Source of the DNA: a virus
DNA: 44,253 nt
Strand: one strand, 5' to 3'
IMG/VR virus record: IMGVR_UViG_3300025322_000062
Span: 1-44,253 of that record
Shown here: one piece after another, positions 3,392 through 17,062 of the stretch
Layout: each line of letters begins with the position of its first letter
How positions within the stretch are numbered: position 1 is the first letter of the stretch
Position numbers and translations under genes: made by a program
The notes under the pieces: model-generated
Database searches by the model: none
What the model saw: only the letters and a program-made list of their open reading frames with translations
What the model was told of the DNA's origin: nothing

Positions 3392-4339
3392 ATGATTAAA
3401 ACAAGAAATATTAAAGCAGATAGCAGAGATACGTTTACAATTCAATATTACGGGGCAACTTCTTTCACCGATAGGACAGTCGGTATAGTTCCCGTTAATT
3501 GCGAATTAGTAAAAGTTCAGGAAGTACACACTACGGCGGCTTCCGTTGGAACTTTAATGGTAGAGAAACTAAGACATACAGAAACTGTGGGAAGTGGGAA
3601 TGATTTACTTTCAGCGGCTATAGACTTAACTGCGGCATCAGCAACAGTTCAAACAGGTGCGTTGATTGCTGTAGCACAGAATAAAACACTTCAACCGTTT
3701 GTAACTTTGTTTCATGCAGGGGATAGGATAGGTTTGGATTTCAGTGAAACCCCAACTTCTCTTGCAGGAATGACTGTTATTCTAACTTTTAGAAAGGTAG
3801 ATGATGTATACTTATTTAGCAATTCAGCAAGTCCTTCTTCGTCTTCAAGTCTTTCTCCGAGTGCTTCTCCGAGTTTATCACCTAGCTTGTCTCCTAGCGT
3901 CTCTCCAAGTGTGAGTTTGTCGCCTAGCTTATCACCAAGCGTAAGTCCTAGTGTTTCACTATCACCGAGTTTGAGTCCAAGCTTATCGCCATCTCTAAGT
4001 CCAAGCTTATCACCGAGTTTAAGTCCGAGTTTAAGCCCATCGGTCTCACCTTCAGTGAGTTTGTCGCCGTCTCTTTCGCCAAGCGTTTCACCGAGTGTGA
4101 GTTTGTCGCCGAGTTTATCACCTTCGGTATCGCCATCGGTTTCTTTGAGTCCAAGTTTTTCTCCGAGCTTGTCTCCAAGTTTATCTCCGAGTGCGAGTCC
4201 CAGCTTGAGCCCAAGTTTGAGCCCGAGTTTGAGTCCGTCGTTATCTCCGAGTGTAAGTCCGTCGGCCTCTCTCTCGCCGAGCAAATCTCCTTCGCTATCG
4301 CCTTCAGTCAGTCCTTCTTTATCTCCAAGCGAGGAGTAG
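3392..4339 (+). CDS. Decoration-like protein with long Ser-Pro repeat tail
   Basis: 315 residues in two parts. Residues 1 to about 140 are a beta-rich domain paralogous to the preceding gene. Residues from about 147 to the end are an almost pure Ser-Pro repeat (SPSLSPS, SPSVSPS) with Leu, Val and Ala as the third residue. Such tails are extended and surface-exposed and are good acceptors for O-linked sugars. The glycosyltransferase cassette begins immediately downstream. I infer a capsid surface fibre or spike; whether the repeat is glycosylated is untested. The repeat also creates long false frames on the opposite strand. Confidence 0.65.
   Translation: MIKTRNIKADSRDTFTIQYYGATSFTDRTVGIVPVNCELVKVQEVHTTAASVGTLMVEKLRHTETVGSGNDLLSAAIDLTAASATVQTGALIAVAQNKTLQPFVTLFHAGDRIGLDFSETPTSLAGMTVILTFRKVDDVYLFSNSASPSSSSSLSPSASPSLSPSLSPSVSPSVSLSPSLSPSVSPSVSLSPSLSPSLSPSLSPSLSPSLSPSLSPSVSPSVSLSPSLSPSVSPSVSLSPSLSPSVSPSVSLSPSFSPSLSPSLSPSASPSLSPSLSPSLSPSLSPSVSPSASLSPSKSPSLSPSVSPSLSPSEE
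3830..4333 (+). repeat. Ser-Pro coding repeat tract
   Basis: About 500 bp of degenerate 6- to 12-bp units coding for S-P-x-L/V-S-P. Codons for Ser alternate between AGT, AGC and TCx, so the protein repeat is much better conserved than the DNA. This points to selection on the protein sequence rather than recent slippage. Confidence 0.85.
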
Positions 4340-5087: not shown

Positions 5088-5305
5088 TGGATTTCAAGGA
5101 ACAGAAAGAATACATAAAAGAAAATAGAAAGATAGACATGAATAAGTTTAATAGAGTTTCCGACATCACGAACATGGTAGATTTTATAAATAACGAAGTG
5201 GAAAGAAAAAATAACGACCGAGCAGATAATGAAATACATGAAATCTCTAAGTTCTTGGCAAGAACAATAGGGCGAAAGATGTTTTTCTTGAAAGGTAAAT
5301 CGTGA
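5087..5305 (+). CDS. Small helical protein in the glycan cassette (72 aa)
   Basis: ATG 5087 shares one base with the previous stop (TGATG) and has a GGGAGG Shine-Dalgarno 7 nt upstream, so translation is coupled. The protein is charged and helical (EQKEYIKENRKIDMNKF) with no recognisable domain. Its stop overlaps the GTG start of the next glycosyltransferase. Probably a partner or linker of the neighbouring enzymes; function unknown. Confidence 0.6.
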   Translation: MDFKEQKEYIKENRKIDMNKFNRVSDITNMVDFINNEVERKNNDRADNEIHEISKFLARTIGRKMFFLKGKS

Positions 5306-5619
5306 ACAATATAGTTTTATCTGTGGTTATTCCTAGTTACCGAGACCCCCTGTTACATAAGACAATAGAGTCTCTTTTAACACATTCTGGTCTTGGAGCT
5401 GGTCTGGAGATTATTCCCGTACTAGATGGTTACTGGCCCGAAACCCCCATTGTAGATGACGAAAGAGTACGAATAGTACATCTAGGTAAGAATCGTGGTA
5501 TGCGGGGGGCGATAAATGCGGGAGTGTCAGTATCCAGAGGAGAGCTTATTTGCAGACTTGATGAACACTGTTGTTTTGACCAAGGTTGGGATAGAAAAAT
5601 GGCTGAGGCATACCAATAA
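5302..5619 (+). pseudogene. N-terminal fragment of a family 2 glycosyltransferase, split by an HNH gene
   Basis: GTG start at 5302 overlaps the previous stop. The 105 residues match the N-terminal half of a GT2 domain: LSVVIPSYRDP (first beta strand), then IIPVLDGYWPE, an RGAINAGV-like segment, and [23 protein letters not shown], equal to MKVDAHCSFDKGFDRKMLEAF in the related gene at 11546. The frame stops at 5617-5619 just before an HNH gene. The rest of the enzyme resumes at about 6081 in a different frame ([11 protein letters not shown]). The two pieces could act as a split enzyme, or be joined if the insert is spliced; no intron core is evident. Confidence 0.7.
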
Positions 5620-5620
5620 T

Positions 5621-6088
5621 ATGACATATAAAAAAGGGCATATCCCATGGACTAAAGGAAAGACACCATCAAAAGAGACTAGGGAGAAACTTCGAGTAGC
5701 TCATTTAGGCAAAAAGCTTACCGAAGAACATAAGGAAAAGCTAAGCGAGTCTCATAAAGGTCCTAGACAATGGAGATTAGGTAAGCCAATTTATAAAAAT
5801 AGAGGAGCTAATGGTTCGGCATGGAAAGGTGGTATATATCCTATAAATAAGGCGATAAGATGTTCTTTAGAGTATAAAATATGGAGAAGGTCTGTTTTTG
5901 AAAGAGATAATTATACGTGTATTTGGTGTGGACAACGAGGAGGGACACTTCACGCTGACCATATAAAACCATTTTCTCTATTCCCAGAATTAAGATTCGC
6001 ACTAGATAATGGAAGGACGCTTTGCATAAAATGTCACGCAACAACTGACACATATAAAAGTAAAGCAAGAACGTATGGAAAACTTTAA
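5621..6088 (+). CDS. HNH homing endonuclease with NUMOD3-like motifs
   Basis: 155 residues starting at ATG 5621, two nt after the stop of the glycosyltransferase fragment. The N-terminal part has repeated NUMOD3-type DNA-binding segments ([20 protein letters not shown], then a second [15 protein letters not shown] copy). The C-terminal part is an HNH nuclease: [11 protein letters not shown] (CxxC), HADHI (catalytic His), a conserved Asn in DNGRTLC, and CIKCHA. This is the class that inserts into conserved phage genes and copies itself by double-strand break repair. It sits precisely inside a glycosyltransferase gene and fills nearly the whole insertion. Confidence 0.88.
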
Positions 6089-6605
6089 AATAGCGAAAGA
6101 AAAGGAGGGTTGGATTATGACGGCTAAAAGATACTTTCTTGACCCTGTTGAGTGGAAAATAATGGACATACCCCCAGTGGAGCATGAAAAGTTGGTTATT
6201 CAAAATGTCAGTGAGGGGGTTAGAAAGTTCGCCGGTGTGCGTTGGAAAAGTCGTGATGAGGAGCAAAAAGATGTTATGGTATCGGAAACCGAGGCTGTTC
6301 AAGGTAGTATGTGGATAATAGGGCGTAAGTGGTGGGATAATATTATCGGTGAATTACAAAATAAAGGATACGGCCCCACTTATCAGGATTCAGTTGAGGT
6401 GTGCATGAAGACTTGGCAAGCGGGAGGTAGGTTGATAGTTAATAAAAACACTTGGTTCGCCCATAAACATAGGAGTTTCCCCAGGACTCATCAGGAGGGT
6501 TCACCAGAGAACCCATCTAATAGAGAGGCTAGTTGGAAATACTCTTTAGAGGTTTGGGAGAGATACTATAATGAGGTTTTAATACCTAAGTGGAAGGATT
6601 TATGA
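6075..6605 (+). pseudogene. C-terminal fragment of the split glycosyltransferase
   Basis: The frame carries the C-terminal half of a GT2 enzyme. Landmarks shared with the intact relative at 11546 include ETEAVQGSMWIIGRKWWDNI (compare ETMSLQGSSFMCTREKFWEL) and WQAGGRLIVNKNTWFAHKHR (compare WLSGGRVLVNHRTWYAHMFR). Possible starts are ATG 6075, inside the end of the HNH gene, or ATG 6118, preceded by AAAGGAGG. Homology to the first half ends at about 5611, so the insertion is about 470 bp and not a multiple of three. It may still be expressed as a separate subunit. Confidence 0.65.
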
Positions 6606-6997
6606 AAGGTCAACCTAGAACCCAGGAAATTAAGGATAAAATTAGTAAAACATTAATGGGTCACCCTATTTCTGAAAAGGTAAGAAGAACACTTGCCGAA
6701 AAGACTACTTTTAAGAAAGGTTTTACTCCGTGGAATAAGGGTAAAAGGTGGTCGGAAGATATGAAAAGGAGAATAAGTCAAACTAATAAAAGAAGTATTC
6801 GTGAGAGAGATAATTATATCTGTCGGGTTTGTAGTCAGTACGGAAGTCATGTTCATCACATAGACTATAACAAAAAGAACTGTAATCCAGAAAATCTTAT
6901 CACTTTATGTACCAGTTGCCATACTAAAACAAACTTCAATAGGCAGAATTGGATATTATATTTTAATAAGGAAATAGTTACTAAGTGGGGTTTGTAA
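6602..6997 (+). CDS. Second HNH homing endonuclease
   Basis: 131 residues. ATG 6602 overlaps the glycosyltransferase stop (ATGA). The N-terminus has NUMOD3-like segments (PRTQEIKDKISKTLMGH, then KGFTPWNKGKRWSEDMKRRI). The nuclease core is ERDNYICRVCSQYG (CxxC), HVHHIDY (catalytic His), NPENLITLC and CTSCHTKTN. It is related to the HNH gene at 5621 but clearly divergent. It lies between the end of one glycosyltransferase and a 32-codon remnant of another, so the neighbourhood was probably rearranged around homing events. Confidence 0.85.
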   Translation: MKGQPRTQEIKDKISKTLMGHPISEKVRRTLAEKTTFKKGFTPWNKGKRWSEDMKRRISQTNKRSIRERDNYICRVCSQYGSHVHHIDYNKKNCNPENLITLCTSCHTKTNFNRQNWILYFNKEIVTKWGL

Positions 6998-10851: not shown

Positions 10852-11555
10852 ACGGCGGAGTGGTCTTTTACACAGATAATAAGATAGGAGAACCAATTAA
10901 ATCCGTGGTTGAAAGATACATATTAGACTCTGAATTACCTATAGTTTCAGTATCTCTTAAACCTATGGATTTTGGACAAAATACTGTGGTTGAGGGTGAA
11001 AGGGGTTATGTTACATATGTGAAACAGATAATTACAGCACTTGAGAAAAGCTCGGCAGATTATGTATTCTTTACGGAACATGACGTCCTTTATCCTGAAT
11101 CACATTTTAAATTTGTACCCACAAGAAATGACATATTTTATTATAACAGCAACGTATGGAGGTGGGAGTTTGGTTCAAATACGGCTATTACTTATGATAG
11201 GATGCTTCCTCTATCCTGTCTGTGTTCCAATAGAGAATTAGCACTCACCCACTATAGACTGCGAATGGAGAAAATAGATGAGAATATAGACGCTTTTAAG
11301 AGTCGTGAACCATCTCTTGCCAGAAAGTGGGGGTATGAACCTGGAACTAAGAAGAAGAAACGTGGCGGTTTAACTGATGATGACTTTGAAATCTGGCAGT
11401 CAGAGTATCCTGTTATTGATATAAGGCACAACGGAACCTTTAGTGGTCCTAAATGCACACTGGACAGCTTCAAGCATGTTCCTGTAAACTGGCAGGAAGT
11501 GCCTATAAGTTGGATTTCTGGTTGGAATTTGAAGGAGATATTTAAATGGAATTAA
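10848..11555 (+). CDS. Glycosyltransferase-like GT-A protein, paralog of the upstream gene
   Basis: 235 residues; GTG start overlaps the previous stop (GTGA). The sequence VVFYTDN, then IVSVSLKPMDFGQNT, then YVFFTEHDVLYPESHFKF keeps the same order as its upstream paralog, with an E-H-D acidic motif in place of E-A-D. The C-terminal third is longer and includes a basic patch (GTKKKKRGGLTDDDFEIW) and RHNGTFSGPKC. The gene pair arose by duplication and may build successive linkages. It ends 10 nt inside the start of the next glycosyltransferase. Confidence 0.6.
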   Translation: MNGGVVFYTDNKIGEPIKSVVERYILDSELPIVSVSLKPMDFGQNTVVEGERGYVTYVKQIITALEKSSADYVFFTEHDVLYPESHFKFVPTRNDIFYYNSNVWRWEFGSNTAITYDRMLPLSCLCSNRELALTHYRLRMEKIDENIDAFKSREPSLARKWGYEPGTKKKKRGGLTDDDFEIWQSEYPVIDIRHNGTFSGPKCTLDSFKHVPVNWQEVPISWISGWNLKEIFKWN

Positions 11556-13096
11556 GTCTTATTATCCCCGCAAGGTCGGAAATATTTCTCAAAGATACTA
11601 TTGAAGATGCCCTTAAAAACATTGAAGCCGACACAGATATTATAGTTTTGTTAGACGGAAAGTGGTCTGAACCCCCCATTATTCAACATGATAGAGTAAA
11701 TATAATATATGTTAGTAAACCTATTGGACAACGGGCTGGAGCCAATCTTGCCTGTAAGCTAAGTAAGTCAAAATATATCATGAAAGTTGACGCCCACTGT
11801 TCCTTTGATAAAGGTTTTGACCGTAAGATGTTAGAGGCATTTAAGATAAGTGGGGACAATGTAACTATGGTTCCTACGATGAAAAATCTACATGCTTTTG
11901 ATTGGCGTTGCCATAGATGTGGCTGGAGGAAGTATCAAGGTCCAACTCCCCAAAGATGTGGTGGGTGCAATGATTCAAGGTTTATGAGAAGAAAAATGAT
12001 GTGGATAGGTAAACCAAGACCAAACAGCAGTTCGTTCTCTTTTGATTCGGAACCTCATTTTGCCTATAATAACGAACTTACGAAAAGAAAGGGTTACGAC
12101 AAGGGTATAATTATTGGGTATAACCTGTCAATTGACTTTATTGCGTCGGATTCTTTGAAGGATAGTGGCTCTACTACGCAAATCGGGACGCAACCATCTC
12201 TTATTTCTAGCATCGTAAACCTTCTTGCAGACCTTACAAGTTCTCATCAATTTACCAGTAGTTCCAATTTTTTTAGGTTCGGGGAGAACATGTCCGTGAA
12301 TACAGTGGGTCTTTCTTCTGTTGACAGTAGCGGGGGCGTCGGAGTTGAGGAGATTGTCAGTGTCGGAAACGAGTCTCAAGTGGACAGGATTACAACATCT
12401 CCTATTCTTACAGATATGGTCAATAACAGGAATGTTCTTTCCTCTACCTCTGGGAACGGGACCGACGAACCAGGCGTAAGCAACTCTGTGTGCAAGGGTT
12501 TCCTTTCGGAGATGAGTACACCTACCATAACCCCCCTTATCTATCCGCCCTTTCCAATTCCAACATCCAGAAGTACTATCAATTCCGATGTTATTAACAA
12601 ATTTAACAGCGTACTCGGGGGAGAGTTTGTCTACAATGAGAAAACAAGTAGTTTCCATAATGGAAGTGTAGCACTAACACCCGTTTATGACAATGGTTTA
12701 ACTGAAACAATGTCATTACAAGGCAGTTCCTTCATGTGTACCAGAGAGAAGTTCTGGGAACTTGATTTAGGGGGCGAGGAGTTGGGAAATTGGGGTAATC
12801 AGGGACTACAGGTAGCGTGTGCTACATGGCTTTCAGGAGGACGTGTACTGGTAAACCACAGGACTTGGTATGCTCATATGTTTAGAACACAGGGTCTTGA
12901 TTTCGGATTCCCTTATGAACTATCAGGCAGGGAAACACAAAGAACTAAGAGTAACGTCAGAGACCTATTCTGGCACAAGAAGCATCCTAAACAGATTTAT
13001 CCAGTTTCCTGGCTTGTTGAGAAATTTGCCCCAGTTACTGGTTGGGACGAAGAAAGTCTAAACAAACTCAAGGAAATTGAATCACACTCTAAATAA
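11546..13096 (+). CDS. Family 2 glycosyltransferase carrying a 197-codon in-frame insertion
   Basis: 516 residues; without the insertion it would be about 319, a normal GT2 size. Residues 1-105 carry LSLIIPARSE, DIIVLLDGKWSE and IMKVDAHCSFDKGFDRKM, the nucleotide-sugar and metal-binding core. A Cys4 zinc-binding segment follows (RCHRCGW and QRCGGCN). The catalytic C-terminal part resumes at LTETMSLQGSSFMCTREKFWEL and GGRVLVNHRTWYAHMF. The Ser/Thr-rich middle (about residues 184-380) is the sense reading of an insertion that carries an HNH gene on the opposite strand. The reading frame stays open through the insertion. Confidence 0.8.
   Translation: MELSLIIPARSEIFLKDTIEDALKNIEADTDIIVLLDGKWSEPPIIQHDRVNIIYVSKPIGQRAGANLACKLSKSKYIMKVDAHCSFDKGFDRKMLEAFKISGDNVTMVPTMKNLHAFDWRCHRCGWRKYQGPTPQRCGGCNDSRFMRRKMMWIGKPRPNSSSFSFDSEPHFAYNNELTKRKGYDKGIIIGYNLSIDFIASDSLKDSGSTTQIGTQPSLISSIVNLLADLTSSHQFTSSSNFFRFGENMSVNTVGLSSVDSSGGVGVEEIVSVGNESQVDRITTSPILTDMVNNRNVLSSTSGNGTDEPGVSNSVCKGFLSEMSTPTITPLIYPPFPIPTSRSTINSDVINKFNSVLGGEFVYNEKTSSFHNGSVALTPVYDNGLTETMSLQGSSFMCTREKFWELDLGGEELGNWGNQGLQVACATWLSGGRVLVNHRTWYAHMFRTQGLDFGFPYELSGRETQRTKSNVRDLFWHKKHPKQIYPVSWLVEKFAPVTGWDEESLNKLKEIESHSK
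12094..12701. mobile_element. 591-bp in-frame mobile insertion flanked by imperfect direct repeats
   Basis: The repeats at 12094-12110 (TTACGACAAGGGTATAA) and 12685-12701 (TTATGACAATGGTTTAA) agree at 14 of 17 positions and lie 591 bp apart, exactly 197 codons. Collapsing them would rejoin GYDKG with LTETMSLQGS, restoring an ordinary glycosyltransferase. The interior is almost filled by an antisense HNH gene. No group I or II intron core was recognised in it. Confidence 0.65.
12128..12658 (-). CDS. HNH homing endonuclease nested antisense in a glycosyltransferase
   Basis: 176 residues on the minus strand. Features in order: an N-terminal segment with SGCWNWKGRIDKGGYGR, typical of HNH_3 homing endonucleases; AHRVAYAWFVG; the core VIDHICKNRRCCNPVHLRLV (catalytic His with Cys/Asn motif); then a zinc-finger part THCIHGH, and RTCKVCKKVYDARNKRW. 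These are hallmark homing endonucleases of phages. It is encoded opposite to every neighbouring gene, and the sense strand under it is stop-free, so its spread need not abolish the host enzyme. No -10 element is seen upstream on its strand. Confidence 0.85.
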   Translation of the reverse strand: METTCFLIVDKLSPEYAVKFVNNIGIDSTSGCWNWKGRIDKGGYGRCTHLRKETLAHRVAYAWFVGPVPRGRGKNIPVIDHICKNRRCCNPVHLRLVSDTDNLLNSDAPATVNRRKTHCIHGHVLPEPKKIGTTGKLMRTCKVCKKVYDARNKRWLRPDLRSRATILQRIRRNKVN

Positions 13097-13110
13097 TACT
13101 TAATTTGAGG

Positions 13111-13116
13111 TATAAT
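13111..13116 (+). promoter_or_regulatory. -10 element before the 13125 gene
   Basis: TATAAT at 13111-13116 lies 8 nt before ATG 13125, two more than the window's usual leaderless spacing, so the leader would be about 2 nt. No clear -35. No Shine-Dalgarno is present between the promoter and the start. Confidence 0.45.
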
Positions 13117-13124
13117 ATACAGGT

Positions 13125-14534
13125 ATGTTAAACAGAGGCAAATATCTATTCGGAAAAGAGTTCTTTGAAGACCACCACGACCTTTTATTAAAATTCGTTA
13201 ATACTAAATTAGGTAAGTGGTTTTTTAGAATACATGGAAAACGTAGCGATGTAGGTGAAAGTAAGATTATAAAGATAGCCCCTAACTTTATTGAATGGTT
13301 GGCATGGGAACCTAAGATTGGAACTTGTTATAAAAGAGAGTTTAGAACCCACAATAAATATACTAAAAGAATTTACTACAGTTTATATCCTATTTGGGTG
13401 TTAATGCACGCTTGGGATATCCTATTTGCAAATAATTTCAAGCCCGCATGGAATTTAGGGTTTGATACCCTTACTGCGTACCCTGACCCTAATGTAGAAA
13501 GTACTTCAGTGGATGGAGAAGTTAGAGGCCCGGCGGGTCCGGACACATGGGCAAATATGCTCGGTGGTTCGGGGGTTTCAGCAGACGATAGTAGTGCTAC
13601 CGGTAGGACTTATATATCCGCTACTGCTGTTGAAGATTCATGGAGTTTTTTTTGGAGAATAATACATTTGTATGATACATCCTCTTTGACTTCTAGTGCT
13701 GTTATATCTTCCGCTACTTGTAGTTTTGTTACTAGTTCAAAAAATGATGATTTCTCGGATTCCATTGCTATAGCCTCTGTTACTCCTGCTAGTAATACAT
13801 CTCTTACAGCCACTGATTATAATATAGCAAATCACGGCTCTACCAGTTTTGGTAGTATAACTGTGGCTTCCTTAACTGCCGATTCATCCACATATAATAA
13901 TATAACACTAAATGCAGATGGTTTAGCTGGTATATCCAAAACAAGTATAACTAAGTTCTCATATAGATTTTTAGCAGATATTTCTAATACTGAATATAAT
14001 CCTTCTGGTACTACCAATAAGTATATGAATATAACTTTTATATTGGCGGATACTGCGGGCACTACTACAGACCCAAAACTTGTTGTTAATTATACGGGTG
14101 TAAGCGTCTCTCCGTCTTTAAGTCCTAGTGCTTCCGTAAGTCCTAGTATAAGTCCATCGCTTTCTCCCAGCATCTCTCCTAGTTTAAGTCCTTCTCTTAG
14201 TCCCTCAATAAGTCCTAGCGTCAGCCCCTCGGTCTCTCCGTCTGTGAGTATTTCTCCTAGCATTTCTCCTAGTGTTAGTCCCTCTATCTCGCCCTCTATA
14301 AGCCCCAGCTTATCTCCGTCAATCTCGCCATCGCTCAGTCCGTCTCTGTCTCCTTCCATTAGTCCAAGTATTTCCCCTAGCTTAAGCCCGTCGTATAGTC
14401 CTTCCTTAAGCCCCAGCGTTTCTCCAAGTGTGTCAATAAGTCCTTCTGAATCCCCCAGTCCCAGTCCGCCCGTCTTAGGAGATGTAATAATATCGGTGAT
14501 TGATAATCCTCCAGTCATTACTAAAGTCAGTTAA
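13125..14534 (+). CDS. Virion surface protein with beta domain and Ser-Pro repeat tail
   Basis: 469 residues in three parts. Residues 1-105 are basic and aromatic (LFGKEFFEDHHDLLLKF, then a WVLMHAWDILF segment), possibly an attachment region. The middle is a beta-rich domain ending in DTAGTTTDPKLVVNYTG, the same ending as in the protein at 17975 (CALLEITYTPG) and reminiscent of DNRLRE/CBM-like jelly rolls. The last third, from about residue 326, is a Ser-Pro repeat (SPSISPS, SPSLSPS), then a short non-repeat tip (GDVIISVIDNPPVITKVS). I infer a tail or head fibre. It follows the glycan cassette directly. Confidence 0.6.
   Translation: MLNRGKYLFGKEFFEDHHDLLLKFVNTKLGKWFFRIHGKRSDVGESKIIKIAPNFIEWLAWEPKIGTCYKREFRTHNKYTKRIYYSLYPIWVLMHAWDILFANNFKPAWNLGFDTLTAYPDPNVESTSVDGEVRGPAGPDTWANMLGGSGVSADDSSATGRTYISATAVEDSWSFFWRIIHLYDTSSLTSSAVISSATCSFVTSSKNDDFSDSIAIASVTPASNTSLTATDYNIANHGSTSFGSITVASLTADSSTYNNITLNADGLAGISKTSITKFSYRFLADISNTEYNPSGTTNKYMNITFILADTAGTTTDPKLVVNYTGVSVSPSLSPSASVSPSISPSLSPSISPSLSPSLSPSISPSVSPSVSPSVSISPSISPSVSPSISPSISPSLSPSISPSLSPSLSPSISPSISPSLSPSYSPSLSPSVSPSVSISPSESPSPSPPVLGDVIISVIDNPPVITKVS
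14104..14469 (+). repeat. Ser-Pro coding repeat tract
   Basis: About 365 bp of degenerate units coding for SPS-x repeats with Ile, Leu and Val in the variable position. The protein pattern equals that of the tract at 3830-4333 but with different codon choices, so the tracts are not recent DNA copies of each other. Confidence 0.8.
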
Positions 14535-15655: not shown

Positions 15656-17062
15656 ATGGAATATTCAACAATATACCTCTCAGGAGGAATAAATAGAAAC
15701 ACATCACCATTTCTTATTGAAGATGGGGAGTCCTCAGATATTCAAAACTTTACCACTACAAAGATAGGAGTTTTAAAAAAGACAGGTGATTACGAACTAA
15801 AGAATGCACAAATAATATCTTCTAAGAATATATTAGGGGGATTTGATTTTCAAAGAGTAAATGGGACCCATGAGCATATTGTAGCAATAGACGGGGCTTC
15901 TAACGCTGGGATTTATAAAGACGTAAATGGAACATGGACTACTCAATCTCAATCTCTTACAGCAGGAAGCAAGGTAAGATTTGCCTATTCACCTGCATTA
16001 GATACTCTATTTGCCTGCAATTATTCAGATGCTACAAGGTCGTATAACGGTTCCTCATGGTCAACATCCACTAACGTAACTTCTGCCCCCAAAGCCAAAT
16101 ATATAATAAACTTTGGACAGAGAATTTACGTTCTAAACTGTGTAGTTGGTGCAACTTCTTATATTAGCCGTGCTTATCGTTCCTCTACTGTAGATTCTGG
16201 CTCAATAACGTGGGATATAACCAACGATTGGATTACTTTTGATGATGTCATTACAGGGGTAGGAAAGTCTGGGGAGAATATGTTTGTTGGATGTCAGAAC
16301 TCCTGTTGGGTATTTACGTTAGCAGACGCCCGTTACCAGGTTTCTGGACATGGGTGTGTTTCTCATGATGGAATATCGGAATATGGTACATGGTTGTTTT
16401 TTCCTTCCCATGACGGAATGTATGTCTTTGACGGGTCTAAGGACATGAAGGTAAGTTTGGCGGTTCAAGATTATTGGGACGCCATTCCTAACGCAAATCT
16501 GTCCTCAATTCAAGCTAAGGTGCGTAAAGACCATTTATATATTTATATCGGAGATGTAACCGTTGACGGTAGAGATTTAGTGAACGTAGTTTTAGATTAC
16601 AACATTTTACAAAATAACTGGACAAGAATGACTTTAGGAGAGAATGTAATGGATATGCACATTTTCACTGAATCTACAGGCAAGGAACTATTTATCGGAA
16701 ACGATGATGGAGAGATATATCAGATGTTTACATCAGGAGCGCAGAACGATACAGTATTCTCCTCTTTTATTGAAACTGCTTGGTTTTATGGCTCTGGACC
16801 AAAGGAAATAGATGATTTTAGAGAATTATGGGCACACGGAGAGAAACTGAGTGGTCTTAAAGTAAAATACAAAGTAGATTCTATGGATTGGAAACCCGTA
16901 GGAGAATTAAATGGATTTTCCGATTTAGTTAAATTTAACGCCTCTGGTAAGAGAATTAAGTTTCTTTTAGAGGAAATGAGTAAAAACAATATGTACGAAG
17001 TACATAGTTTGGAAGTTGGATTTATGCCTAAATTCCCAGAGAGTAAAGAGGAGAAAGAATGA
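15656..17062 (+). CDS. Tail nozzle / tail tube protein, beta-propeller type
   Basis: 468 residues. The N-terminus YLSGGINRNTSPFLIEDGESSDIQNF matches the start of gp12/gp10-like podoviral nozzle proteins, which begin with a domain carrying L..G.N....P...... and then form a beta-propeller. Repeated short strands with aromatic turns follow (GIYKDVNGTWTTQSQSL, RSYNGSSWSTST, GIYKDV, DGMYVFDGSKDM). The C-terminal part has EIDDFRELWAHGEKL, SLEVGFMPKFP and a charged end. It would form the distal tube ejecting DNA. The start ATG 15656 lies one nt after the previous stop. Confidence 0.75.
   Translation: MEYSTIYLSGGINRNTSPFLIEDGESSDIQNFTTTKIGVLKKTGDYELKNAQIISSKNILGGFDFQRVNGTHEHIVAIDGASNAGIYKDVNGTWTTQSQSLTAGSKVRFAYSPALDTLFACNYSDATRSYNGSSWSTSTNVTSAPKAKYIINFGQRIYVLNCVVGATSYISRAYRSSTVDSGSITWDITNDWITFDDVITGVGKSGENMFVGCQNSCWVFTLADARYQVSGHGCVSHDGISEYGTWLFFPSHDGMYVFDGSKDMKVSLAVQDYWDAIPNANLSSIQAKVRKDHLYIYIGDVTVDGRDLVNVVLDYNILQNNWTRMTLGENVMDMHIFTESTGKELFIGNDDGEIYQMFTSGAQNDTVFSSFIETAWFYGSGPKEIDDFRELWAHGEKLSGLKVKYKVDSMDWKPVGELNGFSDLVKFNASGKRIKFLLEEMSKNNMYEVHSLEVGFMPKFPESKEEKE

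Follow-up and report, generated by a model that had tools for sequence, protein, structure and literature searches.

HNH homing elements in phage glycosyltransferase (GT) genes have probably been selected to stay translatable on the strand opposite to their nuclease gene, with translation of the host gene continuing through them; we give this reading a probability of about 0.8. The features that support it are a recurrent insertion site, an identical reading register, avoidance of reverse-stop codons, a promoter-like sequence in front of the nuclease gene, intact residues of the host GT and a patchy distribution. According to the proposed mechanism, an HNH element with its own promoter would enter a variable linker of the GT, antisense and in frame. 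Ribosomes on the GT mRNA would then traverse the insert, so that the resulting GT contains about 180-197 additional residues, rich in Ser/Thr and probably forming a disordered loop, and the nuclease would be made from the other strand, probably via a leaderless transcript. Cleavage of empty alleles is the presumed means by which the element would move from one divergent GT gene to another, and the site would be tolerated by the element because the host frame stays open. We infer that the insert is translated, that the GT retains activity, that the nuclease cleaves DNA and that the element homes.

An antisense HNH gene within a phage glycosyltransferase

The stretch of DNA analysed (the window) spans a viral record of 44,253 bases and carries the tailed-phage genes for terminase, portal and major head protein. 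Its host gene on the plus strand (11546..13096) encodes a family-2 GT (Glycos_transf_2, E=3.7e-8) as one ORF of 516 aa, insert included. A PDB fold search assigned the window GT a GT-A fold with polypeptide GalNAc-transferases as the nearest solved folds, a match that is uninformative about the insert, and no GT match was present among 50,697 phage records. In homologs from IMG/VR the aligned part was confined to query residues 1-186 and about 382-511, and since they match both flanks only, the middle of the GT ORF is an insertion. The first search yielded 24 loci with GT relatives, the middle missing in all save L004, and the second search yielded many more. L004 is another contig of the same phage and repeats the window's own sequence, agreeing with it along 13.5 kb at all but 12 bases, which fall inside 16159-16175.

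The best-fitting extent of the inserted element is 12104..12694 (G187 to N383), about 591 nt or 197 codons, with edges uncertain by a few codons; these cannot be fixed to the base because the linker that forms the site, immediately ahead of the conserved ETMSLQGS motif, varies in length. We found no closely related empty allele. The sequence-only reading had described a 591-bp, Ser/Thr-rich insert in a GT with a 176-residue HNH gene on the opposite strand, and the protein family matches, the homologs missing the middle and the composition (27% Ser/Thr in the insert vs 12% in the GT flanks) bear this out. Absence of the 197 codons from the homologs argues against their being part of an ordinary enzyme domain.

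The HNH gene occupies 12128..12658 on the minus strand, codon-aligned antisense to the GT frame, and its 176-aa product matches HNH_3 (PF13392; E=2.8e-13, 49.7 bits vs a gathering score of 24.8) and phrog_826 (E=2.3e-34). No relatives of the HNH alignment were found in bacterial and archaeal genomes. Upstream of the gene, a -35 box TTGTCA (12688..12693, minus strand) lies 17 bp from a -10 box TACACT (12665..12670, minus strand), which is 6 bp from the ATG. All six copies of the element described below share the pattern TTG(N)3-17-TACACT-6-ATG, in which the TACACT box and TACACTTCCATTATG are invariant. The arrangement looks like a sigma-70 promoter spaced for a leaderless HNH mRNA. Its sense side is open in all six copies, and the motif 'HNGSV' encoded there is the HNH promoter read as protein, the H being the antisense of the HNH ATG. 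A scan with the promoter motif for copies in other host genes gave four further matches, none of them HNH genes.

The 17-bp direct repeats that had been noted around the insert are real in the window, where the left copy (12094..12110, plus strand) and the right copy (12685..12701, plus strand, overlapping the -35 box) agree at 14/17 positions, a level reached in 0/100 shuffles. Their generality did not hold, because at these positions the remaining five copies show background similarity only (10-11/17), so the repeat is not a property of the element. Being confined to the window, the repeats were rejected as a target-site duplication. Also at the left edge, a sense-encoded block G-(hydrophobic)3-G-Y/F (12104..12121, plus strand, in the window downstream of the HNH stop) keeps its amino acids and varies at third codon positions. 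In three copies the HNH gene does not extend over this block, and such conservation hints that the sense protein is itself under selection.

AlphaFold predicted the GT core of the window protein with high confidence and residues 199-348 as unstructured, mostly with pLDDT <50. Short strands were predicted at the insert ends (188-197 and 375-382). The picture for the L114 protein was similar, with end strands at 181-189 and 350-357. The insert ends may pair and so close a loop.

The GT cluster of the window holds three HNH genes, at 5621-6088, 6590-6997 and 12128-12658. At 5302-6605 a paralogous GT is a conventional case of gene splitting, interrupted by the NUMOD3/HNH gene 5621-6088 in the same orientation. 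The N-part of this GT ends at 5619, and its C-part may begin anew from ATG 6075, an arrangement of genes in pieces. The NUMOD3/HNH-like gene 6590-6997 follows directly after this split GT. Two further genes (3392-4339 and 13125-14534, one of them directly after the GT) carry long Ser-Pro-rich repeats (SPSLSPS...), and their products are possibly phage substrates or structural proteins.

Recurrence of the element and openness of the sense frame

The same arrangement was found in six distinct virus contigs (the window, L113, L114/L037, L115/L030, L116/L035 and L117/L029). In all six the HNH gene is antisense, at the same GT site and in register 0, and the GT is a single open ORF of 516-763 aa, not the divided gene left by gene-splitting homing endonuclease genes (HEGs) of the Aeh1 mobE type. 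By comparison with homologs that lack it, the insert measures 594 nt in the window and 540 nt in the five others, both multiples of 3; a stretch of 54 nt or 18 codons (12137..12190) is unique to the window copy and keeps both frames. The motif DH...NP.HL of the catalytic region is kept in all six HNH proteins. The host GT genes look alive despite the insert, since near-invariant residues are intact: 0/56 near-invariant GT columns are altered in the window and 0-2/56 in the six interrupted GTs, and the uninterrupted GTs are similar (mean 0.75). In five of the six, as in the contig L221 described below, a further C-terminal domain follows downstream of the insert in the same ORF.

The insert is missing from >60 homologous GTs, and in a tree of 86 GTs the six interrupted ones are scattered among about 80 that are uninterrupted. 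Several uninterrupted GTs share 63-66% identity with the window GT, and over the whole ORF the other interrupted ones share 45-51% with it. The six HNH proteins are mutually 59-67% identical, above the 45-51% of the window ORF with the other interrupted ORFs, which agrees with horizontal spread of the element between divergent GTs. Patchy presence at one site, empty alleles and divergent hosts (6 vs about 80) are the distribution of a homing element. An assembly artefact was rejected in view of the six contigs with diverged copies and of L004 repeating the window sequence.

With the HNH and GT codons in exact register, the GT frame can contain a stop only where the HNH gene uses TTA, CTA or TCA, and the window HNH gene has none of these. 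Among the six in-GT HNH genes such reverse-stop codons account for 0/67 Leu and 0/49 Ser codons (0/116 together). From the codon use of the hosts, 5 to 9 of them would be expected per HNH gene, giving P of 3e-3 to 1e-6 per lineage, and for the window alone openness has P=5e-5 given phage codon use. In a stricter test each distinct codon was counted once per alignment column and the element's own bias was taken from the other amino acids; across the six lineages, which share ancestry and are not fully independent, this gave P about 8e-10. The other two sense frames are not open, with 4-6 and 13-21 stops. Among 31 control HNH genes with <48% GC, 236/680 Leu+Ser codons were reverse stops, and the only controls with zero were L040 and L048. 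Chance openness was rejected on the strength of the codon tests and these controls. The six HNH genes show a general preference for pyrimidine-ending codons, those for V, I, T, A and P ending in A being depleted as well. This preference is part of the codon pattern and could have its source in strand bias; it does not explain the complete absence of TTA, CTA and TCA.

Openness was further found to depend on where the HNH gene lies. In L221 (2185-4659) a different HNH gene of 239 aa is antisense at another GT site, where the GT domain adjoins a fused C-terminal domain; the ORF of 824 aa is open, and reverse stops make up 0/30 of the Leu+Ser codons. The HNH genes of L040 and L048 each lie between two cistrons of a GT operon, with a sense ORF that shares an ATGA overlap with the neighbour on either side. 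In L138 (2406-2999) an antisense HNH gene comes right after GT codon 12, the GT restarts downstream with its N-terminus duplicated, and the sense ORF runs into the genes on both sides, sharing about 20 nt with the upstream one and at least 14 nt with the downstream one. Reverse stops are absent from the HNH genes of these three loci. At the 3' end of a GT gene (L039, L205, L273, L274 and L275) the HNH genes carry 1-5 reverse stops each, and openness is not needed there because nothing downstream depends on the frame. L273-L275 are relatives of the L221 HNH gene and stand at the end of unfused GTs. The sense frame is thus open in 10/10 cases with a continuing host ORF (7) or an overlapping neighbouring GT cistron (3) and in 0/5 at the GT 3' end (Fisher p=3e-4), a strong comparison but not a blind one, the position classes having been set after the loci were seen. 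The loci L044/L045/L083/L091/L237 were left out of this count, as they come from higher-GC phages and have long antisense ORFs with partial overlap or no recognisable host. The sequence-only reading had held that the sense strand is open beyond chance and that an antisense homing gene, neither intron nor intein, may leave its host frame open. Both statements agree with the codon tests and gain support from the six diverged in-register copies, the intact GT residues and the 3'-end relatives with reverse stops, and openness now extends beyond the window to the other five contigs and to L221, L040, L048 and L138.

Rival readings of the open frame

The sense strand might be open mainly for ribosome retention, through coupling or Rho-type polarity protection of the GT operon, and not for making an insert-bearing GT. 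At L040, L048 and L138, where the sense ORFs overlap the genes on both sides (by ATGA joints in the first two and by longer ones in L138), translation continuity, and not an enzyme insert, is indeed the only obvious benefit. Within genes, however, the copies keep the near-invariant GT residues on both flanks, the insert length is a multiple of 3 and, in L221 and five of the six, the ORF continues into the C-terminal domain, which makes this account of the in-gene copies unlikely. Nucleotide or codon bias in the HNH family is scarcely credible as the source of the openness. Third positions of the HNH genes are T- and C-rich and some high-GC HNH genes show single antisense-open frames, but reverse stops are absent even under the element's own bias, the remaining two sense frames are full of stops, and low-GC relatives, some of them adjoining GT genes, are rich in reverse stops.

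Removal of the insert by an unrecognised protein- or RNA-splicing mechanism would also account for the intact host GT residues, and the ends are faintly intein-like, with LSxD near the start and HN near the end. The conserved HN, however, has Gly as its next residue and is internal to the insert, in the block that constitutes the HNH promoter. No intein or Hint domain on the sense strand was matched in Pfam or PHROGs, and at the edges, uncertain by a few codons, the left residue is G in 6/6, without Cys, Ser or Ala, and the right edge is N/K followed by G/E/D; an intein was rejected since neither domains nor junction residues fit. No group I or group II intron was matched in Rfam at E<=1 on either strand of 11400-13300, and with about 60 nt free of HNH coding there is no room for one, so an intron was rejected too. 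Furthermore, RNA splicing would make an open frame unnecessary. Splicing of either kind thus appears very improbable, and selection for a sense strand that remains translatable within the GT is the reading that we prefer.

Significance and relation to known systems

Homing genes in coding sequence are known to survive via RNA splicing, via protein splicing or by splitting genes that remain functional in pieces. If the preferred reading is true, dual-strand coding that leaves the host readable would be another survival route. It would also show, in nature and in several replicates, how selection acts on two antisense-overlapping frames, with built-in controls in the relatives freed of the constraint, and a sequence rule for metagenome searches, namely a codon-aligned antisense HNH gene without TTA, CTA or TCA. 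We lean, with some reserve, towards regarding these elements as a separate intragenic mobile class, in which one strand encodes a nuclease and the opposite strand a translated linker that the host protein can accommodate. Such elements would occupy coding sequence and tightly coupled operon joints of phages without splicing, and their sense-encoded ends may fold as paired, loop-closing strands.

In the open-access literature we found no description of an antisense homing gene with an open host frame. Inteins with homing endonucleases are likewise in-frame mobile elements in conserved protein genes that do not close the host frame, but here the nuclease is on the opposite strand, splicing domain and junction residues are lacking and the insert would remain in the protein. 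HNH genes encoded by group I introns also lie in protein genes with a scattered distribution, whereas here there is no intron match, nuclease coding takes up about 90% of the insert and the sense frame is open. The palindromic elements of Rickettsia are not known to carry a nuclease. They are in-frame selfish DNA retained in proteins (PMC10969869) and resemble the present case in being translated within host proteins; they are palindromes of about 150 bp, whereas the elements here, of about 540-594 nt, bring along a nuclease gene with its promoter on the opposite strand, and no palindrome of the Rickettsia kind was present among the inverted repeats. Reviews describe phage homing genes within genes as splitting them (PMC2988022) and phage homing genes as intron- or intein-borne (PMC10448857). 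The gene-splitting HEGs mobE in nrdA of Aeh1 and mobA in gene 60 of T4 (PMC2988022) share with our case an intron-free HNH gene inside a phage gene, but they divide the host into separate ORFs, whereas here the ORF is whole and the HNH gene antisense. An insertion in Campsomeris cox2 (PMC5374615) is similar in being in frame, with a putative HNH-like nuclease and antiparallel overlapping ORFs; it differs in being mitochondrial and about 3 kb long, and its transcripts show cox2 split in two genes without the read-through proposed here for the phage GTs.
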